Positions 2,832 through 37,116 of a DNA stretch of 64,000 nucleotides are shown piece by piece (within the stretch, counting starts at the first letter, position 1; each line of letters opens with the position of its first letter). Origin of the DNA: Coriobacteriaceae bacterium. GTDB lineage: Bacteria; Actinomycetota; Coriobacteriia; Coriobacteriales; Coriobacteriaceae. The stretch covers positions 16,837 through 80,836 of the forward strand of contig CABIWB010000002.1 of the NCBI GenBank assembly GCA_902362275.1. Direction: 5' to 3'. The position numbers were made by a program, and so were the translations under genes. A model generated the notes under the pieces. That model saw only the letters and a program-made list of their open reading frames with translations. It did not search any database and was not told where the DNA came from.

Positions 2832-5459
2832 ATGAGAATCGATAAGCTAGCAATGACGTCGCGCGAGGCGCTGCAGACCGCCATGAGCACGGCTGCCGAC
2901 GCGCAGGCTGGCGCGGTGGAGCCGATTCACCTGCTGTCCGCCCTGCTCGGTGCCGGCGAGCGCAATATCTCCGTGATTATCGAGCGCATCGGTGCCGACC
3001 CGGCTCAGCTCGCACGTTCCACACAGGATGCCATCGACCACGCGCCCAAGGTTTCGGGCGAGGGTCAGCAGATGGGCCTGTCCAACGAGCTTGTCCGCGT
3101 CATCGAGAAGGCCGAGAAGAAGGCCACCAAGATGGGCGACAGCTTTGTGGTGACTGAGCATCTGCTGATGGCTCTTGCCGAGGACAAGGGCGAGGCGGGT
3201 CGCGTGCTGCGCGACGCCGGCGTCACCAAGGAGCGCATCGAGCAGGTCTACGAGGAGCTGCGTGGCGATGACCGCGTGACGTCTGCCGAGGACAAGACTC
3301 AGTTTGAGGCACTGGAACAGTACGGCCGCAATATCTGCGACCTTGCCCGCGCCGGCAAGCTCGACCCGGTCATCGGCCGTACCGACGAGATTCGTCGTAC
3401 CATCCAGGTCCTGTCCCGTCGCACCAAGAACAACCCCGTGCTCATCGGTGAGCCGGGCGTCGGCAAGACGGCCATCGTCGAGGGCATCGCCCAGCGTATC
3501 GTGGCCGGCGACGTGCCGAGCACCCTGCGCGACCGCGACCTTATCGAGCTCGACATGAGCGCGCTGGTCGCCGGCGCCAAGTACCGCGGCGAGTTCGAGG
3601 ACCGCTTGAAGGCCGTGCTCAAGGAAGTGCAAAAGTCCGAGGGCAAGGTCATCCTGTTCATCGATGAGCTCCACACCATCGTGGGCGCGGGCGCCACCGA
3701 GGGCTCCATGGATGCCGGCAACATCCTGAAGCCGGCGCTCGCCCGTGGCGACTTGCACGCAATCGGCGCGACTACGCTCGACGAGTATCGCAAGTACATC
3801 GAGAAGGATGCGGCACTCGCCCGTCGTTTCCAGACCGTGATGGTCTCCGAGCCCACCGTCGAGGACACCATCTCGATCCTGCGTGGCCTCAAGGAGAAGT
3901 ACGAGATCTTCCACGGCGTGCATATCACCGATAGCGCGCTCGTGGCGGCCGCCGACCTCTCCGATCGCTACATCGCCGACCGCTTCCTGCCCGATAAGGC
4001 CATCGACCTGGTCGATGAGGCCGCAAGCCGCCTGCGCATGGAGCTCGACAGCATGCCGGTCGAGATCGACGCCACCACGCGTCAGTTCACCCAGCTGCAG
4101 ATTGAGGAGCAGGCGCTCATGAAGGAGACCGACGACGCCTCCAAGGAGCGTCTGGAGGCCCTGCGCCAAGAGATTGCCGAGGTCCAAGAAAAGCTCAACG
4201 TGCAAAAGGCCGGCTGGCTCAACCAGAAGAACGCCATCGACCACGTGCAGGAGCTTAAGGGGCAGCTCGACGAGGCCAGAAGCGAAGAGGAGCGCGCGAC
4301 GCGCAACGGCGACCTGGGCCGTGCGTCCGAGCTGCGCTACTCCGTGATTCCGGGTTTGCAGCAGCAGATTCAGGATTCCGAGGCTGCGCTCGAGGCACAA
4401 AAGCAGCAGGACGGCGAGGGCCTCAACGAGCAGGTGACCTCCGATGAGATCGCCGAGGTCGTGAGCGCCTGGACCGGCGTGCCCGTGTCCAAGATGATGC
4501 AGGGCGAGCTCGACAAGCTCAAGGGCCTGGAGGGCGAGCTGCATAAGCGCGTCATCGGCCAGGACGAGGCCGTGTCCGCTGTGGCCGCGGCCGTGCGTCG
4601 CAGCCGTGCGGGCCTCTCCGACCCGGACAAGCCCATCGGTAGCTTCTTCTTCCTGGGCCCCACCGGCGTAGGCAAGACCGAGCTCGCCAAGGCGCTGGCC
4701 GAGTGCCTGTTCGATGACGAGCGCGCACTCGTGCGTATCGACATGTCCGAGTACATGGAGAAGTTCAGCGTCCAGCGTCTGATCGGTGCGCCCCCGGGAT
4801 ACGTGGGCTACGACGAGGGCGGTCAGCTTACCGAGGCCGTGCGCCGTCGTCCGTACTCCGTGATCTTGCTCGACGAGATGGAGAAGGCCCATCCGGATGT
4901 CTTTAACGTGCTGTTGCAGGTGCTTGACGACGGCCGTCTGACCGATGGCCAGGGTCGCCAGGTGTCCTTCAAGAACACGATTATCATCATGACGTCCAAC
5001 GTGGGCTCCAAGGCCATTGCCGATCTGTCCGGTAAGGACGAGGAGGAGATGCGCCATCAGGTCGACACCGCCATGGCTCAGACCTTCCGCCCCGAGTTCC
5101 TCAACCGTATCGACGATATCGTGGTGTTCCATCCGCTCGGCATGGCGCAGATCGAGAAGATCGTCGACATCCAGCTCGCCGACGTCCGCGCGCGTCTGGC
5201 CAAGGAGCGCATGACGCTTGCCATCACCCCGGCGGCCAAGCAGCTGCTCGCCGTGGGCGGCCTGGACCCCGTGTTCGGTGCCCGTCCGCTCAAGCGTCTG
5301 GTGCAGCGCGAGGTCGTGGATGCTATCGCGGCGGCCATCATCGACGGCACGGTGCGCGAGGGCGATCAGGTGACGGTCGATGTCGACAAGGACGGCGGCT
5401 TTACCGTCGTGTGCGACAACACCCCGGCAGCCACCTACGAGGTCCCCGACGCCGAGTAG
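2832..5459 (+). CDS. clpB: ATP-dependent disaggregase ClpB
   Basis: The 875-residue Hsp100 chaperone resolubilises aggregated proteins together with DnaK. It has the full architecture: an N domain (residues about 1-150), the first AAA module with Walker A GEPGVGKT (about 206-213) and Walker [11 protein letters not shown], a long coiled middle domain (about 410-520) that distinguishes ClpB from ClpA/C, and the second AAA module with GPTGVGKT (about 612) and [16 protein letters not shown]. The start at 2832 has GAGAGGTG upstream. The gene is monocistronic, with a leader hairpin and its own terminator. Nothing is truncated. Confidence 0.97.
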
Positions 5460-10249: not shown

Positions 10250-10912
10250 TCAGTTCTGGGGCTTGCGCTCCGGATACTTGGCGGTATAGCCCTCGATGTG
10301 GAGTGTCGAGGCGATGATTTCCTTGACCGTCTCGTCGGGCACATCGGGGTGCGTGCGGATATACATCAACAACCCCATGATGAGGGTGTAGAACGTCTCG
10401 TAGACATGGTCGATGCGTAGCTCATGATGGGCGACAAAATCTACCACGGTGGTGTCGCAGATATACTGCGCCACACGCTGGACCACGTTGTGCAAAAAGC
10501 CGCCGTAGAGCGCGCCACTGCTTGAGGTGAGCGTACTCGGCAGTTCGTGGCCGCTGGCGACCAGACGCTTAAAGAGCGGGGCGACGGTGTCGAGCGCGCC
10601 CTCGATATCGCCGACGGTGCGGCCGGCGTTCCACTGCTCGAGCTCGGAGATAAAGCCGTCGATCGCCTCGTCCATAACAGCGGTGACGGCGGCGTCCATA
10701 TCGGCGAAGTAGTGGTAGAACAGTGAGCGCGTGCAGCCGGCTCGCTTGGCCACGGCCGAGACGGATAGATGCGACACGCCCAGCTCGGAGCTTACGGTGC
10801 GCACGGCATCGAGGATCTCGCGACGGCGTTCGTCTCCCGTCAGGCGCTTTGCCGCGCTATCGGACGCAAGAGTGGCGTCGGCCACAGGGATATCTGCGTA
10901 CGTGTCGCCCAT
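10250..10912 (-). CDS. TetR/AcrR-family transcriptional regulator
   Basis: The 220-residue regulator has the TetR DNA-binding helix-turn-helix in residues about 28-72 (REILDAVRTVSSELG then LSVSAVAKRAGCTRSLFYHYF). A helical effector domain follows. ATG 10912 is preceded by AAGGCGG. It is divergent from the large Fe-S/FAD oxidoreductase, with two dyads between them, and is followed by the DUF5692-like gene. The most economical reading is that it represses itself with the membrane gene and the oxidoreductase. The effector is unknown. Confidence 0.9.
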   Translation of the reverse strand: MGDTYADIPVADATLASDSAAKRLTGDERRREILDAVRTVSSELGVSHLSVSAVAKRAGCTRSLFYHYFADMDAAVTAVMDEAIDGFISELEQWNAGRTVGDIEGALDTVAPLFKRLVASGHELPSTLTSSSGALYGGFLHNVVQRVAQYICDTTVVDFVAHHELRIDHVYETFYTLIMGLLMYIRTHPDVPDETVKEIIASTLHIEGYTAKYPERKPQN

Positions 10913-10970
10913 GTTTTGCCGCCTTTCATCCTCTTTTGCCTGACCGTTCGCCTAACAGTCTTGAATATTG

Positions 10971-11007
10971 TTGACGGTTCGTCAATACTATTTTTGACAC
11001 AATGTCA
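10971..11007. promoter_or_regulatory. Operator-like dyads between tetR and the oxidoreductase
   Basis: Two dyads lie close together: TTGAC-GGTTC-GTCAA (10971-10985) and TGACA-CAA-TGTCA (10995-11007). Both contain TTGAC, which also resembles a -35 element. This is the natural place for the TetR regulator to act on both divergent promoters. Confidence 0.5.
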
Positions 11008-11101
11008 GCAATGGCGGGTGAACGGCATGGGGGCATGCCCGGCCTGCAAAAAAAGAGGGGCGCTGCGGCCTCGTCGGGCTGCGGCAAGAGAAGGGACAAC
11101 C

Positions 11102-13876
11102 ATGATTCTCAACGGACCGGGGATTAGTTACACCGAGCCCGATACCGGCGCGGAGTTTGTGCCGCCGCTGCCGGAGCATCCGCGCGAGGCAATCGTCAAG
11201 CTGTGCGAGCACTGCACCAACCGTCTGCTGCATCGCGACGAGCTGCTGGGCTACGAGTACTGGTCGTTTGCCGAGGCCGCAACCGACGAGCAGGCCGAAG
11301 TGCTCTGCAAGATGAAGATGCGCCGCCCCTATACGCTGTCCGAGATGGTCAAGCTCACCGGCATGCCCGAGGCCGATATCGAGAAGATGCTCGACGACAT
11401 GAGCTACACGGGCCTGCTCGAGTACAACTGGGAAAACCCCGAGCGCGCCAAGCAGTGGGTGCTGCCCATGCTGGTGCCGGGTTCCGCCGAGTTCCTCAAC
11501 ATGCGCGTAAGCCAGCTCGACGAGCACCCGGTCTACGCCAAGTTCTTTGAGCAGGCGTCCAAGGGACCGCTGTCCAAGGCCACGCCGATGGTGCCGCCTG
11601 GCGGTGCCGGCATCGGCATGCATGTAATTCCGGTCGAGAAGGCCATCGATGCCGCGAGCACGTCGGTGCCGATCGAGCATATCGAGCATTGGCTCGACAA
11701 ATACGAGGGTAAATATGCCGCCAGCACCTGCAGCTGCCGCGCGAGCCGTCGCGTGATGGGCGAGGGCTGCGCCGATGACCCGGCCGATTGGTGCATTGCC
11801 GTGGGCGATATGGCCGACTATGTGGTCGAGACCGACCGCGGCCATTATGTGACGCGCGAGGAGGTCTACGACATCCTGCGCCAGGCCGAGGACAACGGCT
11901 TTGTGCACCAGATCACCAACATCGACGGCGAGAACAAGATCTTCGCCATCTGCAACTGCAACGTCAACGTGTGCTATGCCCTGCGCACCTCGCAGCTGTT
12001 CAACACGCCCAACCTGTCGCGCTCGGCCTATGTCGCCAAGGTCGAGAAGGACAAGTGCGTGGCCTGCGGTCGCTGCGTTGAGGTGTGCCCGGCCGGCGCC
12101 GCCAAGCTCGGCCAAAAGCTCTGCAGCAAAAAGGCGGGCGGTCGCGTGCCCGAGTATCCGCGCCAGGAGCTGCCCGACGCCACCAAGTGGGACCACACCA
12201 AGTGGTCGCCTAACTACCGCAACGACAACCGCATCGAGACGCATGAGTCCGGCACCGCTCCCTGCAAGACGGCCTGCCCCGCGCACGTTGCCGTTCAGGG
12301 CTATCTGAAGCTCGCGGCTCAGGGTCGCTATGACGAGGCCCTAGCACTCATTAAGCGCGAGAACCCGCTGCCCGCTATCTGCGGCCGTGTGTGCAACCGT
12401 CGCTGTGAGGATGCCTGCACCCGCGGCCGTGTGGACGCCGCCGTGGCTATCGACGAAGTCAAGAAGTTTATCGCCCAGCGTGATCTGGACGCAGCGACCC
12501 GCTATGTCCCGCCCGTGGTGACTCCGACGCGTGCCGGCGGCTTCGACCAGAAGATCGCCATCATCGGTGCCGGTCCGGCAGGTCTGTCCTGCGCTTTCTA
12601 TCTGGCCGAGAAGGGCTACAAGCCCGTCGTGTTCGAGAAGAGCGAACGCCCGGGCGGCATGCTCACCTATGGCATTCCCAGCTTTAAGCTGGAAAAGGAC
12701 GTTATCGAGGCCGAGGTCGAGATCATTCGCTTGATGGGCGCCGAGTTCCGCTATGGCGTGGAGGTCGGTCGCGATGTGACGCTCGACGAGCTGCGCGCGC
12801 AGGGCTTTAAGGCCTTCTACGTTGCCATCGGCTGCCAGGGTGGCCGCCTTGCCGGCATTCCGGGCGAGGATGCCGAGGACGTGACCGTGGCCGTCGACTT
12901 CCTTCGCGAGGTTAACAGCGGCAAGATCGATACCCTGTCCGGCCGCACCATTGTGGTGGGCGGCGGCAACGTGGCCATCGACGTTGCCCGCAACGCCTGC
13001 CGTCTGGGCTCTGAGCATGTTGAGATGTTCTGCCTGGAGAGCGAGGCCCAGATGCCCGCCAGCGAGGAGGAGCGTCGCGAGGCCATCGAGGACGGTGCGC
13101 ACATCAGCTGCGGTTGGGGCCCCAAGGAGGTTCACCTGGACGAGGCCGGCCGCGTGTGCGGCATCACCTTTAAGCGCTGCACGCGCGTCTACGATGACGA
13201 GGGGCGTTTTGCGCCCGAGTACGATGAGAACGATCTGCGTCGTGTCGATGCCGACCGTGTCGTCATGTCGATTGGCCAGTCCATTGTGTGGGGCGACCTG
13301 CTGGCTGGCTCCAAGGTGGAGCTTGGCCGCGGTCAGGGTGCCCTTGCCGATCCTCAGACCTACCAGACCGCCGAGCCAGACATCTTTGTGGGCGGCGATG
13401 TCTACACCGGTCCGAGTTTTGCCATCGATGCCATCGCCGCCGGCCACGAGGCCGCCGTGTCCATCCATCGCTTTGTGCAGCCGGGGTCCACGCTCACCAT
13501 CGGCCGCAACCAGCGCCGCTACACCGCGCTCGACCGCGACGATGTCGTGATCGAGAGCTACGACAACGCGAGCCGTGAGGTTGCCCACGTGGACCGCGAG
13601 CGCGAGAAGGCCGCGCCGTTTAGCGAGTACGTCGAGACCTTTACCGAAGAGCAGGTGCGCGCCGAGACCGCCCGTTGCCTGGGTTGCGGTGCCTCGATCG
13701 TCGACCCCAACAAGTGCATCGGCTGCGGCCTGTGCACCACCAAGTGCGCGTTCGACGCCATCCATCTGGATCGCGACCGCCCCGAGTGCTCAACGATGGT
13801 CAAATACGAGCAAAAGCTCCCCAGCCTGGGCAAGTACGCCCTCAAGCGTGCCATCAAAATTAAGTTCGGTCATTAG
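11102..13876 (+). CDS. Large Fe-S/FAD NAD(P)-dependent oxidoreductase (GltD-like fusion)
   Basis: The 924-residue protein combines several redox modules. Residues about 1-300 form a Cys-rich region with a winged-helix-like stretch (TLSEMVKLTGMPEADIEKML) and Cys motif STCSCRASRRVMGEGC. A 4Fe-4S motif CVACGRCVEVCPAG follows near 318. Then comes a glutamate-synthase-small-subunit-like module: the Fe-S region CGRVCNRRCEDAC, an FAD site IAIIGAGPAGLSCAF (about 484) and an NAD(P) site IVVGGGNVAIDVARN (about 617). The end carries CIGCGLCTTKCAFD (about 870). It probably passes electrons between NAD(P)H and ferredoxin or an organic substrate. ATG 11102 follows AAGGGA. An open frame extends further upstream but crosses the promoter region. 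Divergent from tetR. Confidence 0.85.
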   Translation: MILNGPGISYTEPDTGAEFVPPLPEHPREAIVKLCEHCTNRLLHRDELLGYEYWSFAEAATDEQAEVLCKMKMRRPYTLSEMVKLTGMPEADIEKMLDDMSYTGLLEYNWENPERAKQWVLPMLVPGSAEFLNMRVSQLDEHPVYAKFFEQASKGPLSKATPMVPPGGAGIGMHVIPVEKAIDAASTSVPIEHIEHWLDKYEGKYAASTCSCRASRRVMGEGCADDPADWCIAVGDMADYVVETDRGHYVTREEVYDILRQAEDNGFVHQITNIDGENKIFAICNCNVNVCYALRTSQLFNTPNLSRSAYVAKVEKDKCVACGRCVEVCPAGAAKLGQKLCSKKAGGRVPEYPRQELPDATKWDHTKWSPNYRNDNRIETHESGTAPCKTACPAHVAVQGYLKLAAQGRYDEALALIKRENPLPAICGRVCNRRCEDACTRGRVDAAVAIDEVKKFIAQRDLDAATRYVPPVVTPTRAGGFDQKIAIIGAGPAGLSCAFYLAEKGYKPVVFEKSERPGGMLTYGIPSFKLEKDVIEAEVEIIRLMGAEFRYGVEVGRDVTLDELRAQGFKAFYVAIGCQGGRLAGIPGEDAEDVTVAVDFLREVNSGKIDTLSGRTIVVGGGNVAIDVARNACRLGSEHVEMFCLESEAQMPASEEERREAIEDGAHISCGWGPKEVHLDEAGRVCGITFKRCTRVYDDEGRFAPEYDENDLRRVDADRVVMSIGQSIVWGDLLAGSKVELGRGQGALADPQTYQTAEPDIFVGGDVYTGPSFAIDAIAAGHEAAVSIHRFVQPGSTLTIGRNQRRYTALDRDDVVIESYDNASREVAHVDREREKAAPFSEYVETFTEEQVRAETARCLGCGASIVDPNKCIGCGLCTTKCAFDAIHLDRDRPECSTMVKYEQKLPSLGKYALKRAIKIKFGH

Positions 13877-18257: not shown

Positions 18258-18333
18258 GCCTCCGTAGCTCAGGGGATAGAGCACCGCTCTCCTAAAGCGG
18301 GTGTCGACGGTTCGAATCCGCCCGGGGGCACCA
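18258..18333 (+). tRNA. tRNA-Arg (anticodon CCT), island target
   Basis: A complete cloverleaf: acceptor GCCTCCG/CGGGGGC (with a G-U pair), D arm GCTCAGGGGATAGAGC, anticodon arm CCGCT-CTCCTAA-AGCGG giving anticodon CCT, T arm GACGG-TTCGAAT-CCGCC (first pair irregular), discriminator A and encoded CCA. It reads AGG codons. Its last 46 bases form the left attachment site of the island, so integration regenerates the 3' end. Confidence 0.95.
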
Positions 18334-18334
18334 G
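18288..18334 (+). repeat. attL of the island (47-bp direct repeat)
   Basis: The repeat runs from the tRNA-Arg anticodon loop (TCTCCTAAAGCGG) through the T arm to CCAG, and is identical to 23257-23303. Confidence 0.93.
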
Positions 18335-18342
18335 GGAAATCG

Positions 18343-18377
18343 CAGGCCAGACGGTGTAAATCGTCTGGCCTGTTTTT
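18343..18377 (+). terminator. Island-borne terminator for tRNA-Arg
   Basis: The exact 11-bp stem CAGGCCAGACG/CGTCTGGCCTG (18343-18353 and 18362-18372) followed by TTTTT lies just inside the island. It replaces the original tRNA terminator now displaced to the right junction. The region 18378-18636 holds no gene I can support. Confidence 0.88.
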
Positions 18378-18636
18378 GTATGAATAGGGGCAAAACTCGA
18401 TTGAGAGGTGAGCTAGGGGCGAAAGTTCTTTCTATGGTGAAATCATCTCAACTTCATATTTTATCCTCAGGGCTGGTTTTCAACCCTTCCCACAGCCTGC
18501 GGGCTGGATGTAGGGCCCTTTGGTTATGGAAAGCGTTGAAAGCCTAGGTTGACGTTGCTGTGAGATGGGCGAGTTTCCAACAGCCTCCGACGTCTTAGGA
18601 TTGCACGGAGGGCCTTACGGCGCAGGCGCCGTTGAA

Positions 18637-18665
18637 AACTCGTCTTTCTGCTAGGAAGACGAGTT
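18637..18665 (-). terminator. Terminator at the end of the specificity gene
   Basis: The 10-bp stem AACTCGTCTT/AAGACGAGTT (18637-18646 and 18656-18665) encloses the TAG stop of the gene in its loop, and is followed on the minus strand by TTTTC. Confidence 0.75.
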
Positions 18666-19746
18666 ATTTATATAGTCCATTTGCCTTTTAAGTAGTCTAA
18701 GGGTAATTGCCCATCCGACTGCTTCCGTGAAGACGAAGTCGGGCTCACCGCTGTTTGTGGAGGGGAGCATAATCGACTGTCTTGCCATCCTTGTGGCGTT
18801 GAACTTGTAGAGATAGCCATACTTGCTCTTTTGTTGCTGGATTGCGACCTTTAGGAATAGATAAATAAACTCATTGCCCTCATTGTTCTTGAGATGAAAG
18901 CGTTTGACGTCATCAGAGAAGATGCATTCATACGGGTGATAGAACCCAAGGCAAACTCCGTTGCCGTTGTATTTCACGCCGAGGACATTGCTGTCGAGTG
19001 ATGAGTTTCTATCGGCTACAAAACCGGCGATACCGTTGCTGTTGTCGAGCGCTCCGATGAATGGGCGTCTTCCGGGCTTTCGGTTTCGGGATTCTAGGCG
19101 CTTTCCAGAGTGAATGTCGAATATCTGGTTGATTGGGTATGCCTCCCAATTTCTTCTGAACAAGGAGGAAGAGTTGAGTTCGAAGTCGATTACTCTCTCT
19201 CTCGCTCTCGATGTCGGAGGTGCGCTTCATTAGGAATTCGCAGCAGTGTTCGATCTGAATCGCCTCGCGCTCGCGAATGTAGTCCTCCATGAATTGCCAA
19301 TCGGGATTGCTGGACTCATCGATGGGAAGCATTACTCGTAGCAAATTGAGCCGTTTTAGGCTGATTGACCTTCCGTGGCCGAATAGCGTTCGCTGTTTAG
19401 AAATGGATGCGGCCACGAATTGCATGGCATATCTTGAGAGGTTTCCGCTTGAGTCTCTTGGCCTTAAGTCCGTTACGTGGGTGTCGAGAGCGAACTCCAT
19501 TGGTTGGTAGTATGCGAGACCCGCCCCGCCATCGCCGTCATTGTTTAGAGTGATGACGTGGCAACGATGAAGTCTTTCGTTTGGGATAGAGACAAAAGCC
19601 TTTACGCCGTTGTCGCAGTTGCGAGCGGAAATAAGTGGAACGTCTCCGACCTGAAGAGAGGTCATGTTTTTTTCGGTGCCGCGAGCCGGTTGAAATAAAT
19701 CCGAGATTTTAAAGGGTGCCCAATCCCTGTTATTCAAATCAAACAT
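18651..19746 (-). pseudogene. Restriction specificity subunit (HsdS/BcgB-like), frame-shifted at a CT repeat, possibly phase-variable
   Basis: ATG 19746 (GAGGAGGG upstream; overlaps the end of the RM gene by 8 bases) opens the first target-recognition domain, MFDLNNRDWAPFKISDLFQP. This frame runs past a (GA)5 tract (minus strand) and then becomes nonsense, ending at 19009. Starting just after the tract, a second frame encodes the second recognition domain, LFRRNWEAYPINQIFDIHSG, to the stop at 18651. Adding one GA unit, or removing two, joins both frames into a 365-residue protein whose linker reads ERERVIDFELNSSS; FELN repeats the FDLN that opens the first domain. That is the structure expected of a two-domain specificity subunit with a phase-variable repeat. 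As sequenced, the gene is off. Confidence 0.85.
19193..19203. repeat. CT dinucleotide tract in the specificity gene
   Basis: Five and a half CT units (19193-19203), then G and a further CTCTC. The length puts the two halves of the specificity gene out of register; gain of one unit restores it. Short dinucleotide tracts are prone to slippage. Confidence 0.85.
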
Positions 19747-21705
19747 CGGGGCCCTCCTCGAAGAGATAGCTACGACCATGAGAAACCATGTCTAGCTGGA
19801 ATGTTAGATAATCGGCTATTGCCTTCTCGAAATCCTCTTCGGAAGGTATCTCGTCGTTGAAGTAATAGAAGCTGTGAAGCCACTCGTCGTCGGCCTTGAC
19901 GGACGAACGGACACAAAACCTCGAGGGGGCGTCTTCGTGGCCGTTCCAGACGTCTAGAAAATGTTGCCTCTTGTCCTTTGCAGAGTCGCCTTCGACGAGG
20001 CCGACATGTGCACGCACCTCGTAGCCGTCGTCTCTGAAATCGATAAATCGGCACTCTTTATCAGGATAATGAGGCTCGCCAGCGGTAAACACAGCTATGA
20101 CGGGATTAGTCCCGACCCCATAGAATGTATCGGTGTTGCACGTAATAACACCTTCGAGGGTGTGATGCTTGAGGATGGAGACCTTGAACTCCTTCTCGGC
20201 TTTGCTCTTTCCTGTCATTGATGATTGCGGAACGATGACCGCCGCTCTCGCACCTATTGTGAAAGAGTCGAGAAGACGTTCCACAAAAGATAGCTCGTAT
20301 TGGCTTGGATCCGCTTTGGTTCCCTGGCTATAAGGAGGATTCATCAGCCCGACCGTTGACCCTTTGAGCTGTATTTGGGCCGGATTCTGCTTGAGGAAAT
20401 CGCAGCATTCAAGGTTGCTGTTTCCGTCGCGCCTAAGAATCATTTTGCAGCCGCGACTGCAAACATGTTGCTTTGGAGCTCAATGCCGTGAAAGTGCGTT
20501 TTCTTAATGCCTTTGCGTTCCTGCTCGCTGGTTGCAGAAGAAAGCATGCGATGCATGGCGGCGATGAGAAATCCCGCCGTTCCGCATGTTGGGTCAAGCA
20601 CCGTATCCGAAGGCTTAACATCTACGAGCTCACACATAAGGTCGCAGATGTGCTTTGGCGTGAGCACGATGCCGAACGTTTGGCCGTCCCCGCCGGAATA
20701 GCTCATGAACTCGCCGTAAAAGCGGCCTATGAAGTCTTCTGAAGTATTCTGGTACTTGATGCTCTTGAAAACGTGCTCGTTAAGGAAGTTGGTGTAGTAG
20801 TGCAGCGGGGTCATCCCGAGGGTATCGTTGACTTCGTTCAAGTGGAAGCTTGTTTGAATAATGCCGAACTCAGCAAGAAGCTTGTTTTTCTTTACATCTG
20901 GTCCGACGTTGGAGCGCGTGAGTCTTCCGCGAATGGCGTTCATCAGCTTGTCGCCGTCGCGCATGCCCTCGGTCTGGTCGCCGGTAAGGGAGTCGATTGA
21001 GAACCCGCCGTATTCGATTTCATCCAGAGCGAGAAGGATGCCAGCCACTACGAGGGCTTTATCTTGGTCCTTGATGGAGCCGTAGGTGCGAAGATATTCG
21101 TGGAGCTCTGCCGCATCTTTGAGAATTTGTTCGGTGGTCTTCTCGACGTCGGTTGGTTCGTCAAGAACATACCGTGTGTAGTATTCAACGATGTTGCTCG
21201 GTGAGAGCCAAGTGAACGATTCGAGGTCTGGGAGCCTCTTGTAGCCTTCTCGATCATTCACGAACACGGGAGATATGGTGTGATGCTTGGAGTCCCCTGA
21301 AACCCCAACGGCGAAGACCTCAGTGAAAGGGCTCTTCTTTGCGATGTGCGAGGCGTAGTGATAGCCACCGTTGACGGTATAATCGGTAACGGCCTCGGTG
21401 CTCATGTCGAGGATGCCAGAATCTGTTAGCTTTTCATGTCGACTTTGGCTCGCCTTATCTTCGATGACAAGAACAAAGCGGCCAATTTTCGAAACGTATT
21501 CAGGATAGCCAGCGTTTCCCGTTCCGCGCTTGGATGCGTCCTTGAGGGCGGTGTCGATTTCTTTGATGCTGCTCCCCTGTGATGTGAACTCAATATCACA
21601 CTCGGTGAGCCTGTCGGCAACCCAAAGATCGAGTGCGGCTTCTTTCCTGGCCGTGTGAAATCCTTCGATAACGAGCTGGTGCGAATTGAATCGCGACAAA
21701 AACAC
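19739..21705 (-). pseudogene. BcgI-like fused endonuclease-methyltransferase subunit, split by a frameshift
   Basis: Two overlapping frames (21705-20440 and 20443-19739) encode one protein of about 655 residues. The N-terminus carries a nuclease-like PE-x-ExK pattern (GYPEYVSKIGRFVLVIEDKAS, Glu82/Lys84). The methyltransferase has motif I VLDPTCGTAGFLIAAM in the first frame and motif IV MNPPYSQG in the second. The break is at AAAATGA (20447-20441), where one extra A would give continuous reading AAAK-MILRRDG; the stop and ATG also overlap as ATGA, so coupled translation of two halves is possible. A nuclease and N6-adenine methyltransferase in one chain plus a separate specificity gene is the BcgI (Type IIB) layout. 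Start GTG 21705 has GGAGG 12 bases upstream. No hsdR is present. Confidence 0.82.
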
Positions 21706-22200
21706 TCAACAGTTTAACCTCCGGCTATAGAGCAAAGGAAAACTACTTCCAATCGGAATTATCGAACGGTAGCGATTCGGGGTTATTGCGTAGCAATCGG
21801 CCACGCGTCGCTCTTGCTGCGGCTCCCTGGCAACGCTCCCCAGGGTCGCGTTTCGTCTGCCTCCGCTCACGCCGGCCCCGCCCGCCGAACGGCTTCGCTC
21901 GATGGCTCCCAGTAGCCGCCATCGCTCCGCCGTGGTCGCCGGGCGGGGCCTCTCGCGCCGGGTCGCCGAGCGCCGTCGTGCGATGCTCTCCATCGATCGC
22001 GTCTTCTTGGCGTCGGCTCAACTGGCGCTCACCTGCCTGGGCTCGCGTTGCCTGGCCAACCGGCTCGCTCCAGGCGGGCAACCGCGACGCGCACGCGGGC
22101 GCTCTCCGAGCGCTCGGTCTGTCCCTTGCAGGCCATGTCGCGCTCGGCCAATTCGGACCGTCGACACCCGCGTCACCAATTTCCCCGCGGGGGGGGAGTT
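21706..22200. other. GC-rich tract without supported genes
   Basis: After the AT-richer start region of the RM gene, the sequence becomes very GC-rich from about 21795. All long frames in it have Arg/Ala/Pro-rich nonsense composition and no ribosome sites. A small hairpin ATTGC-GTA-GCAAT lies at 21784-21796. It may be a relic of a mobilisation or replication region of the element; nothing recognisable remains. Confidence 0.5.
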
Positions 22201-22245
22201 TTCGAATCCGCCCGGGGCACCAGAGATTTATCGAGCTCGGTACCG
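22201..22245 (+). repeat. Decayed third att-like copy
   Basis: From TTCGAATCCGCCCGGGGCAC onward the sequence matches the tRNA-Arg 3' end and, further on, the chromosomal flank seen at the right junction (AGATTTATCGAGCTCGGTAC against AGATTGATCGAGCCCGGTAC). One base is lost in the acceptor part and the flank has substitutions. This looks like the right junction of an earlier or nested insertion. Confidence 0.7.
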
Positions 22246-22439
22246 CAACGGCGACACGCCTTGCTAGTTTAGGAAAGCTCGTCGTCGGTGCCCTAACGCA
22301 CTGCCGTTTAGCGCCGATTCTGCCATGCCCGCACTCTTCGCGAGGGTGAGGAGCGTGAATTGATCGGAGAGTGCCAACCACTCTGATAAAACTGTCCTCG
22401 CTGTCGGCAGCCCTCGTGCCGGGCAGAGCCCTCCATCCG

Positions 22440-22580
22440 ATGGGAGGTGATGCCCAGACCGATTTCACCGAGCTCGTGAAGCTCCTGACCGCTATGGTCT
22501 CGCTCCTCACGGCCCTTGTCGGCCTTTCCAAGGCACTCAAGCAGGGTTCGAAGCCCAAAAAGAAAGGCCACCGTCGCTAA
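22440..22580 (+). CDS. Possible small membrane peptide (46 aa)
   Basis: The frame encodes a hydrophobic segment (LVKLLTAMVSLLTALVGLSKAL) followed by a strongly basic tail (KPKKKGHRR). This composition is typical of small membrane-active or holin-like peptides on mobile elements. The same frame is open upstream to a GTG at 22371. No good ribosome site precedes ATG 22440, so the start and even the coding status are uncertain. It lies in the island between the decayed att copy and the integrase stub. Confidence 0.35.
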   Translation: MGGDAQTDFTELVKLLTAMVSLLTALVGLSKALKQGSKPKKKGHRR

Positions 22581-22762
22581 GACGATGACCTAACTTCGTT
22601 AAGCAACGGCTCTGCCCAGCTCATCACAACTTTGGCTGCCGTCGGCATCATTTTACCCTCCTGACGAGGAATTCGTCCATATTTCAAAAATCAAATTGTG
22701 CCCGCGTTGTCATCCTGCTATCGAAGCCTTGATTCTCATTTTCATTGCAACACCCTCAGGAC

Positions 22763-23065
22763 TCAGCGCAACGCGTTGCGCTCGGTGTCCCTATTTTCAT
22801 GAAAGACCCAGCAGTAGGACGCAAGCAAATTGGGCGTTTTGGTTTTAGAGATCGTGCCAGAGGAGTTGATTTCAGCCGGCTTGGCTCGCATTGCAGCCTT
22901 TGCTTCTGTCTTAGTCTTGCAGTGAACCGTATAAGTTGGGGATCGTTTATAGCGCCCCGTCTTAGGGTCCTTGATCCCAAGTAAGAAATAATAGCGGTAG
23001 GTGTTAGGCGACCTCTTGTCTTTCCAACACGTGCCTCTTCCGCTAATGAGTGGCTGTTCTGACAT
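22763..23065 (-). pseudogene. Tyrosine integrase, N-terminal stub
   Basis: The 100-residue frame has the arm-binding N-terminal domain of phage/ICE integrases (WKDKRSPNTYRYYFLLGIKD, then KTGRYKRSPTYTVHCKTKTEAKAAM) and the first part of the core-binding domain (SYCWVFHENRDTERNALR). It stops there; full integrases have about 380 residues, and the catalytic Arg-His-Tyr domain is absent. The position about 190 bases inside the right att repeat is where the integrase of a tRNA-targeting element is expected. No remainder was found to the left (22581-22762). Confidence 0.75.
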
Positions 23066-23256
23066 CTTTGCACCCCGTTTCTTTGAACAGCTTTCAACAA
23101 TTCATTGAGTGCAGTTTAGCTAAAGCTGTTGGTAATATGTTTGTCAAAGCGTAGGCGCAGCTACCGGAGTTAAAAGACACAAACTGCTATGTCTATCTGC
23201 GGTTATATGGTGTTCAATGATGCTTGATGAATAGTAGGGGGTAGCATTAAATCATA

Positions 23257-23303
23257 TCTCCTAAAGCGGGTGTCGACGGTTCGAATCCGCCCGGGGGCAC
23301 CAG
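23257..23303 (+). repeat. attR of the island (47-bp direct repeat)
   Basis: Identical to 18288-18334. Upstream bases differ from the tRNA gene (ATA before TCTCC instead of CGC), so this is only the 3' part and not a functional tRNA. The 190 bases between the integrase stub and this site show no gene. Confidence 0.93.
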
Positions 23304-33818: not shown

Positions 33819-34535
33819 TTAGCGCTTCTTCTTGTTCTTCTTCTGCTTGTGTTGCTTGCCCTTGGTCTCCTGGGGCTGGTCGCCCTGTTTGGCTTCGGCA
33901 GCGGCCTTTTCTGCCTTCATCTTCTTGCGTTTCGTCTCGATGCGGAGTTTTTTGTTGATGCGCGCCTTGAGGAAGGGACCGAACTGCTCGGCATCGCCGC
34001 GGACAAAGGTGTCCTTAGGGATCGTCACGCCCTGGTCGGCGAACATGGCCACAAAGATGCGCTCGCCGTCGAGCACGTGGTCGAGCTTTTCAAACGGGAA
34101 GAACTGCGACTTGCCGCTCTTGCCCCAAACCATCAGGCCGTCCTCGTTGGCGGCGACGCGGCGATAGCGGCCGCCCATGGACTCGTCGGCCTCGACGGCG
34201 TCGATAAAGTCGCGGGCGAGGGTGTGGTGCAGGTTCTTGCTCCACCAGGCCAAAAAGGCGCCGAATACGATCAGCACGACGCCAAACTTGATCCAGTTGC
34301 TGCCGGCCACCAACATGCCGATGCCGATGAGCGCGGCAATTGCCGCGGCGACATACAGCGAGCCGCGACGCCTGGGCGAGGCGACCAGGCGGGCGAAGTC
34401 GGTGACCAGGTCGTTTTCGTACTGGTACTCGTTGAGGTACAGGATACCGTCGTCGGCTGCTGCCTGCGCCTCGAGCGCGACCTCGACCTGGTCGGCTGCT
34501 TCGGAGGGAACGAGGTTGCTCTCTGCATCTGCCAT
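33819..34535 (-). CDS. YcxB-like membrane protein
   Basis: The 238-residue protein has two adjacent membrane helices (SLYVAAAIAALIGIGMLVAG and IKFGVVLIVFGAFLAWW, about residues 58-96). A C-terminal cytoplasmic domain resembles YcxB (GKSQFFPFEKLDHVLDGERIFVAMF, then VTIPKDTFVRGDAEQFGPFL), and it ends in a lysine-rich tail (KQHKQKKNKKKR). The YcxB family has no firm function. It is monocistronic between the kinase operon and dnaX, which diverges from it. Confidence 0.75.
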   Translation of the reverse strand: MADAESNLVPSEAADQVEVALEAQAAADDGILYLNEYQYENDLVTDFARLVASPRRRGSLYVAAAIAALIGIGMLVAGSNWIKFGVVLIVFGAFLAWWSKNLHHTLARDFIDAVEADESMGGRYRRVAANEDGLMVWGKSGKSQFFPFEKLDHVLDGERIFVAMFADQGVTIPKDTFVRGDAEQFGPFLKARINKKLRIETKRKKMKAEKAAAEAKQGDQPQETKGKQHKQKKNKKKR

Positions 34536-34650
34536 GCTCTTTGGACTCCTATCGCGGCGGGCTCGCCGTACGGGTTATTATGAATGCAGTATGCCGTGCG
34601 ACCGCATGGCCGTCGCGGCAACAAGACTCAGTATACCCGGGGGAGCACCC

Positions 34651-37116
34651 ATGGAATCGTTGTACCGAAAGTATCGCCCGCTCACCTTCGACTCCGTGGT
34701 GGGCCAGCATCATATCGTCTCGACGCTCGAGCACGCTATCACCGAGGGACGCCTATCCCATGCGTACCTGTTCTGCGGACCGCGCGGCACGGGCAAGACC
34801 ACTATGGCGCGCATTCTGGCCAAGGCGCTGCTGTGCCGCAATGCCGAGGCGGCGTGTGCCGAGGGTGCAAGCGGCTGCATGCCCGACGGTACTTGTGAGG
34901 AGTGCGAGCTCATTGCCGAGGGCAACCACCCGGATGTCTACGAGCTCGATGCCGCAAGCCGTACTGGCGTGGACAACGTGCGCGAGGAGATCATCAACTC
35001 CGTCAACTTTGCCCCGGTGCGCGGCAAGTACAAGATCTATATCATCGACGAGGTCCACATGCTCACGACGGCGGCGTTCAACGCGCTGCTCAAGACGCTT
35101 GAGGAGCCGCCGGCACACGTGATCTTTGTGCTGTGCACCACCGACCCGCAAAAGATTCTGGAGACCATCCTCTCGCGCTGCCAGCGTTTCGATTTCCATC
35201 GCATCGGCAATGAGGATATTGAGCATCGCCTGGCATACGTGTGCGAGCAGGAGGGCTTCGATTACGACGACGAGGCGCTGGCCATCGTGGCGCGCCATGC
35301 CAAGGGTGGCATGCGCGACGCGTTGTCCACGCTGGAGCAGCTGAGCGTTTTTGGCAACGGTTCTGTGCATGCGGACGATGCCCGCTCGCTTTTAGGCGAG
35401 GTTTCGGACCAGATTCTGGGCGAGTTTTCCCGCGCCATTGCCGATCGCGATGTTGCCGAGATCTATGGACTGATCCGTGCGCAGGTCGAGGAAGGAAACG
35501 ACCTGCTGGAGCTGACGCGCGACCTGGTGGCGCATGTGCGTGACGTGTACGTTGCCTGCGTTGCCGGTGCCCGTGCCGAGCTGTTTGAGGGTGGCTCCGA
35601 GCAGGCCGAGGCGCTTGCTGCCGAGGCCGCTGCCTTTGGCGAGCATCCTGCCGACCGCCTGGCCCGTGTGCTGACAGTGCTCGATGATGCCGCACTGGAG
35701 ATGAGGGGCGCGAGCGATGTGCGCCTGGTGCTCGAGATCGCCTGCACGCGCCTGGCACGTCCCGAGGCTGATATAACGATTGAGGCATTGGCCGAGCGCG
35801 TGGCACGCCTGGAGGCCATGGTTGCCAATGCCGCGGTGCCGGCGAGCGTGGCTGCTGCTCAGGCCGCCGCGCCTGCAGCATCCGTACCCGCTGCCGCCCA
35901 GCAGCCGACGCTTATCTCGGGTGCCCGAGCTGCCGCTCCGGCGGCATCCACTGCCCCCGCTGCTACGTCCGCGCATCAGGGCGGCATGCCTTGGGACCGT
36001 GGTGCTGCCGCTCCGGCGGCTCAGCCGGCGTCTCGTGCTGCGTCCGCACCGGCGTCCAAGCCTGCGGCGTCCGCGCCCCAGCCCGCCGCTGCCCCGGCTC
36101 CCGCATCTGCCGCCGTGCCGGCACCTAAGCCCCAGCCCAACACTGCCGCTCAGGTTGCTGCCGCCGGTGCTGCCGAGACGCCCGCGGTCGAGGATGCCGG
36201 AGAGCTGCAGCGCAAATGGGCCGAGGTTGTCGAGCGTGTCAAGGCTCGTCAGGCCTCCTACGCAGGGCTTTTGCTCAATGCTCGCGCCACGGCCGACGAC
36301 GGCTCCAAGCTCACGGTCTCGTTCCCCGCGGGCTCGACCTTTGCCATTAAGATGCTCGGTCGCGCCGATACTCAGTCGGTGGTCCTGCCGACGGTCTGCG
36401 CGGTCTTCGGTCGTCGCACCGTCGACTACGTCCTGGACGGAGGTGGCACGCCGGCTCCTCAACATGAGGAGCATTCTCCATCTGCACGGGCTGCGGCATC
36501 TGCGGACCCGCAACCCGTGTCCTCGGCGGCCCCTGTATCCTCGAGCGCCAGCGCGTCGCAGCAGCAAGCGGCACCGGTAGCGGCATCGACCCCGTCGGTG
36601 CCTAAGCCAGCCGCGGCCAAATCGGCTGCTTCGGTCCCCGCGCCCAAGTCTGCCGCTGCGCCTGCGCCCAAGTCATCCGACCTGGGCAAGGCCCCCTGGC
36701 TGCGCTCGGACAACCCTGCCGGCGCTCCCGCCACGGGCAAGCTCCCGACTGAGCCTGCGCCCCGCGCGCCCGAGCGCGCGTCCGCTCCCAAGGCTCAGCC
36801 GTCCGCGCAGTCTGCACCGTGGGAATCCGAGCAGGTGCCCTACGACGATGCCATGGTCGCCGGTTTTGCCGCCGATGCAGGCGGGGACGATCTGCCCCCG
36901 TTCGACGTGCCGGCCACGGCGTCCGCGTCCAAGCCCGCTGCAACTGCCCCCAAAGAGGAGGACGCTCCTGCAGCTCCCTGGGAGTCCAGCCCCGGCGCGG
37001 GCAGTCCCTTCGGCCATCAGGGCGCAGCCCCAAGCATCCCGCAGACCGAGGACGAGGCCAAAGCCCTCATCCGCAGCGTCTTCGGTCAGTCAACCATCTT
37101 CAAGCCGGTGGAGTAA
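34651..37116 (+). CDS. dnaX: DNA polymerase III subunits gamma/tau
   Basis: The 821-residue clamp-loader ATPase has Walker A GPRGTGKT (about residues 44-51), a zinc-binding cysteine set in the stretch about 63-90 (CRNAEAAC...GTCEECE), the DEVHMLTTAAFNALLKTLEEPP box and the SRC motif (LSRCQRFDF). The second half (about 395-800) is a very long Ala/Pro/Ser-rich region in which a conserved tau-like segment (WAEVVERVKARQASYAGLLL, about 530) is embedded. ATG 34651 follows GGGGGAGC. The linked genes ybaB and recR are the standard partners in most bacteria. Confidence 0.96.
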   Translation: MESLYRKYRPLTFDSVVGQHHIVSTLEHAITEGRLSHAYLFCGPRGTGKTTMARILAKALLCRNAEAACAEGASGCMPDGTCEECELIAEGNHPDVYELDAASRTGVDNVREEIINSVNFAPVRGKYKIYIIDEVHMLTTAAFNALLKTLEEPPAHVIFVLCTTDPQKILETILSRCQRFDFHRIGNEDIEHRLAYVCEQEGFDYDDEALAIVARHAKGGMRDALSTLEQLSVFGNGSVHADDARSLLGEVSDQILGEFSRAIADRDVAEIYGLIRAQVEEGNDLLELTRDLVAHVRDVYVACVAGARAELFEGGSEQAEALAAEAAAFGEHPADRLARVLTVLDDAALEMRGASDVRLVLEIACTRLARPEADITIEALAERVARLEAMVANAAVPASVAAAQAAAPAASVPAAAQQPTLISGARAAAPAASTAPAATSAHQGGMPWDRGAAAPAAQPASRAASAPASKPAASAPQPAAAPAPASAAVPAPKPQPNTAAQVAAAGAAETPAVEDAGELQRKWAEVVERVKARQASYAGLLLNARATADDGSKLTVSFPAGSTFAIKMLGRADTQSVVLPTVCAVFGRRTVDYVLDGGGTPAPQHEEHSPSARAAASADPQPVSSAAPVSSSASASQQQAAPVAASTPSVPKPAAAKSAASVPAPKSAAAPAPKSSDLGKAPWLRSDNPAGAPATGKLPTEPAPRAPERASAPKAQPSAQSAPWESEQVPYDDAMVAGFAADAGGDDLPPFDVPATASASKPAATAPKEEDAPAAPWESSPGAGSPFGHQGAAPSIPQTEDEAKALIRSVFGQSTIFKPVE

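Follow-up and report, generated by a model that had tools for sequence, protein, structure and literature searches.

A GA repeat at the joint between two target-recognition domains is a candidate slippage switch in a BcgI-like specificity gene

The minus strand of the window (the whole 64-kb stretch of DNA analyzed here) carries a restriction-modification operon made up of an RM gene (21705-19739) and a specificity (S) gene (19746-18651). The operon lies in a 5-kb island (18258-23303) between a tRNA-Arg gene and a 47-bp repeat of that gene's 3' end (Table 1). It was probably acquired horizontally; GC content is 51% across 18651-21705 versus 62% in six neighboring genes. A short open reading frame (ORF) within the island was picked out by eye as a possible integrase remnant. 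We take it to resemble the N terminus of a tyrosine integrase, and it has no match in Pfam, NCBIfam, or PADLOC. The island also has short internal matches near 22151-22217 and, in its GC-rich part, a G8 run at 22189-22196. Because three other genomes (G001, G006, and G018) have a second match to the tRNA end approximately 13, 9, and 15 kb from the tRNA, respectively, this site may be an island hot spot at which other genomes hold other islands.

Table 1. Coordinates of the features of the island and its RM-S operon in the window
Feature	Position	Strand	Remarks
tRNA-Arg (CCT), integration site of island	18258..18333	+	
S gene, TRD2 in other frame, stop 18651	18651..19192	-	Methylase_S E 2e-14; PADLOC Specificity_II 3.3e-48; TRD HMM match starts at 19166
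(GA)5G tract CTCTCTCTCTC, TRD1/TRD2 junction	19193..19203	-	GAGAGC before, TAA directly after; same place in L001 and L002
S gene, TRD1 and C-terminal helix	19204..19746	-	Methylase_S E 2e-12; TRD HMM match ends at 19234; helix 150-182 in model
RM gene, second part	19739..20443	-	PDLC03602 2e-70, profile 402-631/637; 94% identical to P0234 405-638
RM gene, first part	20440..21705	-	PADLOC REase_MTase_IIG PDLC03602 8e-93, profile 13-400/637; 97% identical to P0234 2-403
Short ORF, possible integrase remnant	22763..23065	-	By eye
47-bp exact repeat of tRNA-Arg 3' end (18288-18334)	23257..23303	.	Far end of island

The S gene is BcgI-like (Type IIB) and encodes two target-recognition domains, TRD1 and TRD2, in different frames that meet at 19193-19203. 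This arrangement had been proposed in a first-pass annotation of the sequence, and it holds, as do the limits then given to the gene: each half matches Methylase_S, and relatives agree with a start at 19746 and a stop at 18651. The S gene's ATG overlaps the end of the RM gene. PADLOC profile PDLC03591 identifies S as a Type II specificity subunit, and the protein obtained by reading through the junction matches Specificity_II at 1.5e-66; the RM gene is named a Type IIG restriction enzyme-methyltransferase by profile PDLC03602. A BcgI-like Type IIB system requires an adjacent S gene with two TRDs, and here two Methylase_S domains are found, in two frames, with a fold like that of Type I and BsaXI S subunits. 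An intact enzyme of the BcgI-like type would be expected to cleave on either side of a bipartite site with a 2RM:1S composition.

The (GA)5G tract at the junction is a perfect tandem repeat in a coding frame, and the length of its unit is not divisible by 3, which is one feature of simple sequence repeat (SSR) phase-variable genes. The sequence GAGAGAGAGAG occurs once in the window, versus a mean of 0.04 in shuffled sequence (present in 3 of 100 shuffles). From the codon ATC to the TAA, GAGAGC plus the tract amounts to 17 nt, which leaves a remainder of 2 when divided by 3. At a remainder of 1 (3k + 1), TRD1 and TRD2 are fused. At a remainder of 0 (3k), the tract ends in GAG-TAA, and the frame therefore stops immediately at the TAA abutting the tract, leaving TRD1 and the helix. 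At a remainder of 2 (3k + 2), the window's own state, TRD1 and the helix are followed by a nonsense tail of approximately 60 codons, to 19009. The first-pass annotation had the frame arithmetic right, with one 2-bp unit gained or two lost restoring the fused frame. It had overlooked the third frame, which stops at the tract and in which L001 and L002, the first relatives encountered, both lie. Its plain on/off switch gives way to three outcomes, one of which is a clean TRD1-plus-helix form. A tract of 5.5 units is short for a fast switch.

We modeled the read-through S protein from 57 sequences (mean pLDDT 88, pTM 0.75). In the model, TRD1 is followed by a helix (residues 150-182) and a weak linker (near 183-191); TRD2 comes next, with a second helix (337-363) behind it. 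The best matches among solved structures are Type I S subunits, and the Type IIB subunit BsaXI (8w0p) was also found. The 14 structural matches at E <= 0.001 have TM-scores, normalized by query length, of approximately 0.3-0.5, values at which the fold is recognized but the domain arrangement is not fixed; a PDB sequence search gave no match at E <= 0.001. Helix 150-182 reaches to the start of the tract, so termination there is predicted from the model to leave a complete TRD and helix.

The RM gene upstream is also out of frame and lacks the start ATG of its relatives, neither of which had been noted in the first-pass annotation. Its first part contains an IEDK stretch, read by eye as a nuclease motif, and the start of N6_Mtase, and its frame closes at the TGA at 20440; the second part, with an NPPY stretch, is shifted by one base. 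At 20440-20443 (ATGA), where the ATG of the second part overlaps the TGA of the first, the window has one base fewer than its relatives: residue 404 of the intact protein P0234 is missing, and L001, L002, L087, and L088 all read AAC-ATG there. Near 21650, the window has ACG where L001, L002, and P0234 have the RM start ATG (by eye). A BcgI-like RM protein would combine nuclease and N6-adenine methylase in one polypeptide; P0234 matches PDLC03602 over its full length (protein 9-634, profile 9-632/637), and in the window the gene is split over two frames. P0234 represents a cluster of 1,582 member sequences that was read through P0234 alone.

The RM lesion in the window copy is likeliest to be decay. 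The overlap of the second part's ATG with the first part's stop makes low-level re-initiation conceivable, and some of the second part may be made in this way. Given the damaged RM gene, and with close relatives (94-97% identical) that are intact, the operon in the window copy is probably silent now, and the switch would be without effect there. The working switch that had been proposed for this genome is not supported, given the RM frameshift and the absence of the relatives' start codon.

Assembly or sequencing error in the window is a very unlikely source of these frames. Short repeats are error-prone, and the RM gene is off by a single base as well. Against an error, however, alignment to the nearest genome, G001, over 24.7 kb contains 12 non-triplet gaps. 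Seven fall in spacers and one in ORF 10769-13876, which is open in the window; the rest make up two pairs within ORF 34177-37116, likewise open, and in each pair the gaps cancel out. This placement gives no sign of poor sequence quality in the aligned 24.7 kb. A lone consensus error, raised in the first-pass annotation as a possible refutation, is also unlikely because two proteins from other assemblies, P0017 and P0127, show the window's own 17-nt state.

Operon DNA was matched in 2 of 43 genomes of the genus (G023 and G025), both with an intact RM gene (open frames of 658 and 644 amino acids). The GA tract recurs at this junction in both, with 27 nt in L001 and 15 nt in L002, and in each case the frame stops at the tract. 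Across the class, the RM protein was detected at E <= 1e-100 in 8 of 396 genomes, G023 and G025 included. Not all loci of the class have the tract; in two from Coriobacteriia, L007 and L013, the TRDs are fused and the junction has no repeat. One locus of the same genus (L085, from G025) has three TRDs in one S gene, with G9 and (GA)7G joints near 3903 and 4500, both out of frame. Relatives in plasmid and phage collections mostly have <60% identity, and an IMG/VR scan with the RM alignment returned 43 pattern-matching stretches, of which 1 encodes a relative.

Natural alleles of the S gene were drawn from two protein searches (1,210 and 154 hits, with the best 120 of each listed). Among the listed matches, we hand-picked 26 GA-tract proteins and read the junction in each: 9 are fused, 6 are short, and 11 carry a tail. 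Eleven tract lengths are represented (9, 11, 13, 15, 17, 19, 21, 23, 25, 27, and 35 nt), all inferred from protein rather than DNA, and assembly errors may affect some of the alleles. The first-pass annotation had asked for such a comparison, and these lengths contain no single shared out-of-frame state. The fused protein P0002 shares 97-98% identity with the read-through protein of the window, and the short forms P0122 and P0123 are 97% and 96% identical across TRD1. Two of the nine fused proteins (P0010 and P0134) diverge from the TRD2 sequence further downstream, and a third (P0125) is cut short, perhaps by the end of its contig; in the tail-state protein P0126, the tail is two residues long. 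A TRD2 like the window's is joined to a different TRD1 in P0006 and P0007, and a TRD1 like that of P0005 is joined to a different TRD2 in P0009; TRDs have therefore been exchanged too. Together, these data show the location of the tract and the presence of relatives in all three states, and with tract lengths that vary and subunits that are fused in some relatives and not in others, the proposal of a phase-variable BcgI-like specificity subunit is supported.

We then surveyed the joints of S genes across phyla. Genome contigs were scanned with an RM alignment, the S sequence playing no part in selection, and the best 80 of 284 relatives were kept; with the window, L085, and L091 (from G244), these make 83 loci. 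A TRD profile, built from 13 intact S genes and rebuilt once from its own hits, was applied to each of the three frames. In 70 of the 83 loci, it located one or more complete TRD-TRD junctions (93 in total), and the other 13 have contig ends or single or partial TRDs.

A simple repeat of a set minimum size lies at 47 of the 93 complete junctions (6.5 per kb; 36 of 70 genes). By the same criterion, TRD bodies contain 3 such repeats in 79.3 kb, and RM genes contain 1 in 155.1 kb. The two sides of the junction are in different frames at 35 of the 47 repeat junctions versus 1 of the 46 repeat-free ones (L081). When each of 57 clusters is represented by one gene, repeats are found at 35 of 72 junctions, with 26 frame changes versus 0. 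The 47 repeats are poly-G or poly-C (33), TA/AT (10), and GA/AG (4), and carriers include Bacteroidales, Streptococcus, Peptoniphilus and its like, Neisseria, Avibacterium, Campylobacterales, a metagenome-assembled genome of Anaerolineales, and Coriobacteriia. The same joint position in distant phyla, with three kinds of repeat, points to repeated selection.

In 34 of the 70 genes, no junction has an SSR. By type, 34 genes have one junction without a repeat, 13 have one junction with a repeat, 12 have two junctions with a repeat at the second only, and 11 have repeats at both. The last joint thus has a repeat in 23 of 23 three-TRD genes versus 13 of 47 one-junction genes (Fisher p 1e-9, for loci that are not independent), a comparison in which 7 fetched one-junction loci have DNA that ends early and a third TRD was possibly missed. 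A stop at the tract occurs at 29 of 47 repeat junctions versus 15 of 46 others (p 0.007, again for loci that are not independent); with so modest an excess, a stop directly after the tract was rejected as a strong universal design. Counts of tract states from cluster sizes were dropped, as one cluster may contain proteins in different states. In L008, L009, L091, and L092, a TRD is interrupted by frame breaks or gaps, probably through ordinary decay. Five Streptococcus loci (L056, L073, L076, L079, and L082) have an extra open frame of approximately 342 amino acids between RM and S.

These patterns bear on two other accounts of the tract. One is plain decay, under which the operon would be a degenerating pseudogene, with the frameshift at the GA tract as one random lesion of several. 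This account is favored by the state of the RM gene, with its frameshift and missing start ATG, by a few S substitutions at positions conserved in aligned relatives (by eye), and by the possible integrase remnant. Decay accounts for the RM lesion of the window copy but not for the tract: it would not put frame breaks at one junction in unrelated genera or retain a GA tract there in 26 relatives, and frame differences fall on SSR junctions by 35 to 1. We consider it improbable. The other account, a protein-level need for an Arg-Glu helix end rather than a DNA switch, draws on the position of the repeat at the helix C terminus in the model and on AGA being commoner in the operon (8 of 57 Arg codons, tract included) than in its neighbors. 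It is nevertheless hardly credible, because other lineages carry G or TA tracts encoding Gly-Gly or Tyr-Ile at the same junction, two of the three lengths break the downstream frame, and AGA makes up 3 of 149 Arg codons in the six neighboring genes.

Tract length also differs between otherwise near-identical copies in this family, both among the protein alleles (with inferred lengths) and, as DNA, among L069, L070, and L071. L070 (Bacteroides mediterraneensis) and L071 (Mediterranea massiliensis) align over 4,470 nt of operon and flank with 0 mismatches and 1 gap, and their second tracts are G8 and G9, respectively; L069 and L070 align over 2,739 nt with 0 mismatches and 1 gap, and their first tracts are G9 and G8. 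These near-identical operons stand under three different taxa, which reflects either recent transfer or shared contamination. A search for further near-identical Bacteroidales copies matched 10 of 295 genomes, the query's own in full and the rest in short, weak stretches. In Streptococcus, the TA tract is present in 9 of 9 fetched stretches at lengths of 16-36 nt; these were taken from the best matches of 73 of 247 genomes, and three of them are L056, L076, and L082.

We conclude that the island very probably holds a BcgI-like RM-S operon in which slippage at (GA)n determines which S protein is made. Slipped-strand mispairing at the end of the first long S helix would be the cause. A length with a remainder of 1 would yield a fused TRD1-TRD2 subunit with a bipartite target, a remainder of 0 would yield TRD1 and the helix, ended by TAA, and a remainder of 2 would yield TRD1 and the helix with a nonsense tail. 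By analogy with half-subunits of Type I systems, the short form may pair with itself or with another copy and read a different, symmetric target. The benefit could lie in phage defense or gene regulation.

It is quite possible, if somewhat short of an even chance, that the fused form alone works and the other two frames are null. Switches in hsdM and Type III mod genes are described as on/off in the accessible parts of PMC7394358, full translation of the Helicobacter pylori BcgI-like S gene is described as prevented at 13 G, and 34 of the 70 surveyed genes are plain two-TRD genes without an SSR. However, one frame ends cleanly past TRD1 and the whole helix, and this is the state of 6 of the 26 picked proteins and of L001 and L002; moreover, NgoAV shows, in what is accessible of PMC9577141, that such a form can be active in a Type I system.

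Slippage among three outcomes may also extend beyond the GA tract. We tentatively suggest, at slightly less than even odds, that BcgI-like systems have TRDs strung together by poly-G, TA, or GA joints, each tract length giving a different working subunit (a symmetric one-TRD dimer, two TRDs, or a three-TRD array), so that a clone could diversify its targets without recombination. If true, target change by slippage would provide fast, recombination-free variation of phage defense and genome methylation in gut bacteria. Two questions become testable: symmetric-site methylation by the one-TRD form and the role of a third, switchable TRD.

Two elements of this picture are already known, namely, the phase-variable G repeat in a BcgI-like S gene (H. 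pylori) and the switch between truncated and fused subunits (Type I NgoAV). In the open-licence PMC literature, we came across no mention of BcgI-like S genes with GA or TA joints or with three TRDs, and no account of the cross-phylum pattern; for phase variation of restriction-modification in Collinsella, the one paper listed was a review on ageing. A 2020 survey reportedly covers repeats in Type I systems. The accessible portions of PMC10053308, PMC3077401, PMC3339403, and PMC6321876 mention no repeats in BcgI-like S genes.

In H. pylori, the S genes of the BcgI-like systems HP1471/HP1472 and JHP1364/JHP1365 (Hpy99XXII) are phase variable by a G repeat of 13 versus 14 G (PMC3936762), and such a repeat also appears in the available text of PMC12003011. 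As in the window, a repeat makes a BcgI-like S gene phase variable; there, however, it is poly-G rather than GA and is described as a frameshift preventing full translation, and section 27 of PMC3936762 does not place the tract at a TRD junction or mention three-TRD genes. The Type IIB systems BcgI, NgoAVIII, and BsaXI likewise combine an RM fusion with an S subunit containing two TRDs (PMC3874165; for NgoAVIII, also PMC6789123). They share the two-gene RM and S layout with the window, and the BsaXI S subunit (8w0p) is a fold match, but the accessible parts of PMC3874165 and PMC6789123 do not mention a repeat switch.

The closest parallels for the short form come from Type I systems. Deletions of EcoDXXI and half-size or homodimeric S subunits indicate that one TRD and a helix suffice and that the target is an interrupted palindrome (PMC3874165, in part). 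The window's short form likewise has one TRD and a helix; the EcoDXXI half-subunits were made by laboratory deletion, whereas a short form of the window's type would come and go by slippage. In NgoAV of Neisseria gonorrhoeae, a poly-G tract lies between hsdS1 and hsdS2, and its length yields either a truncated, active S protein or a fused one with another specificity; with further mutations or 7 G, the system is probably inactive (parts of PMC9577141 and PMC7394358). The short forms are reported to pair into a symmetric recognition unit (PMC9577141, in part, and a table footnote in PMC3874165). Like the S gene of the window, NgoAV has a repeat tract between two S halves; unlike it, NgoAV is a Type I system with a separate hsdR and a poly-G tract, whereas the window has a Type IIB RM fusion and a GA tract. 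As for an NgoAV-like switch of specificity, short S forms exist among the proteins of the window's relatives, and their activity with a specificity of their own is putative.
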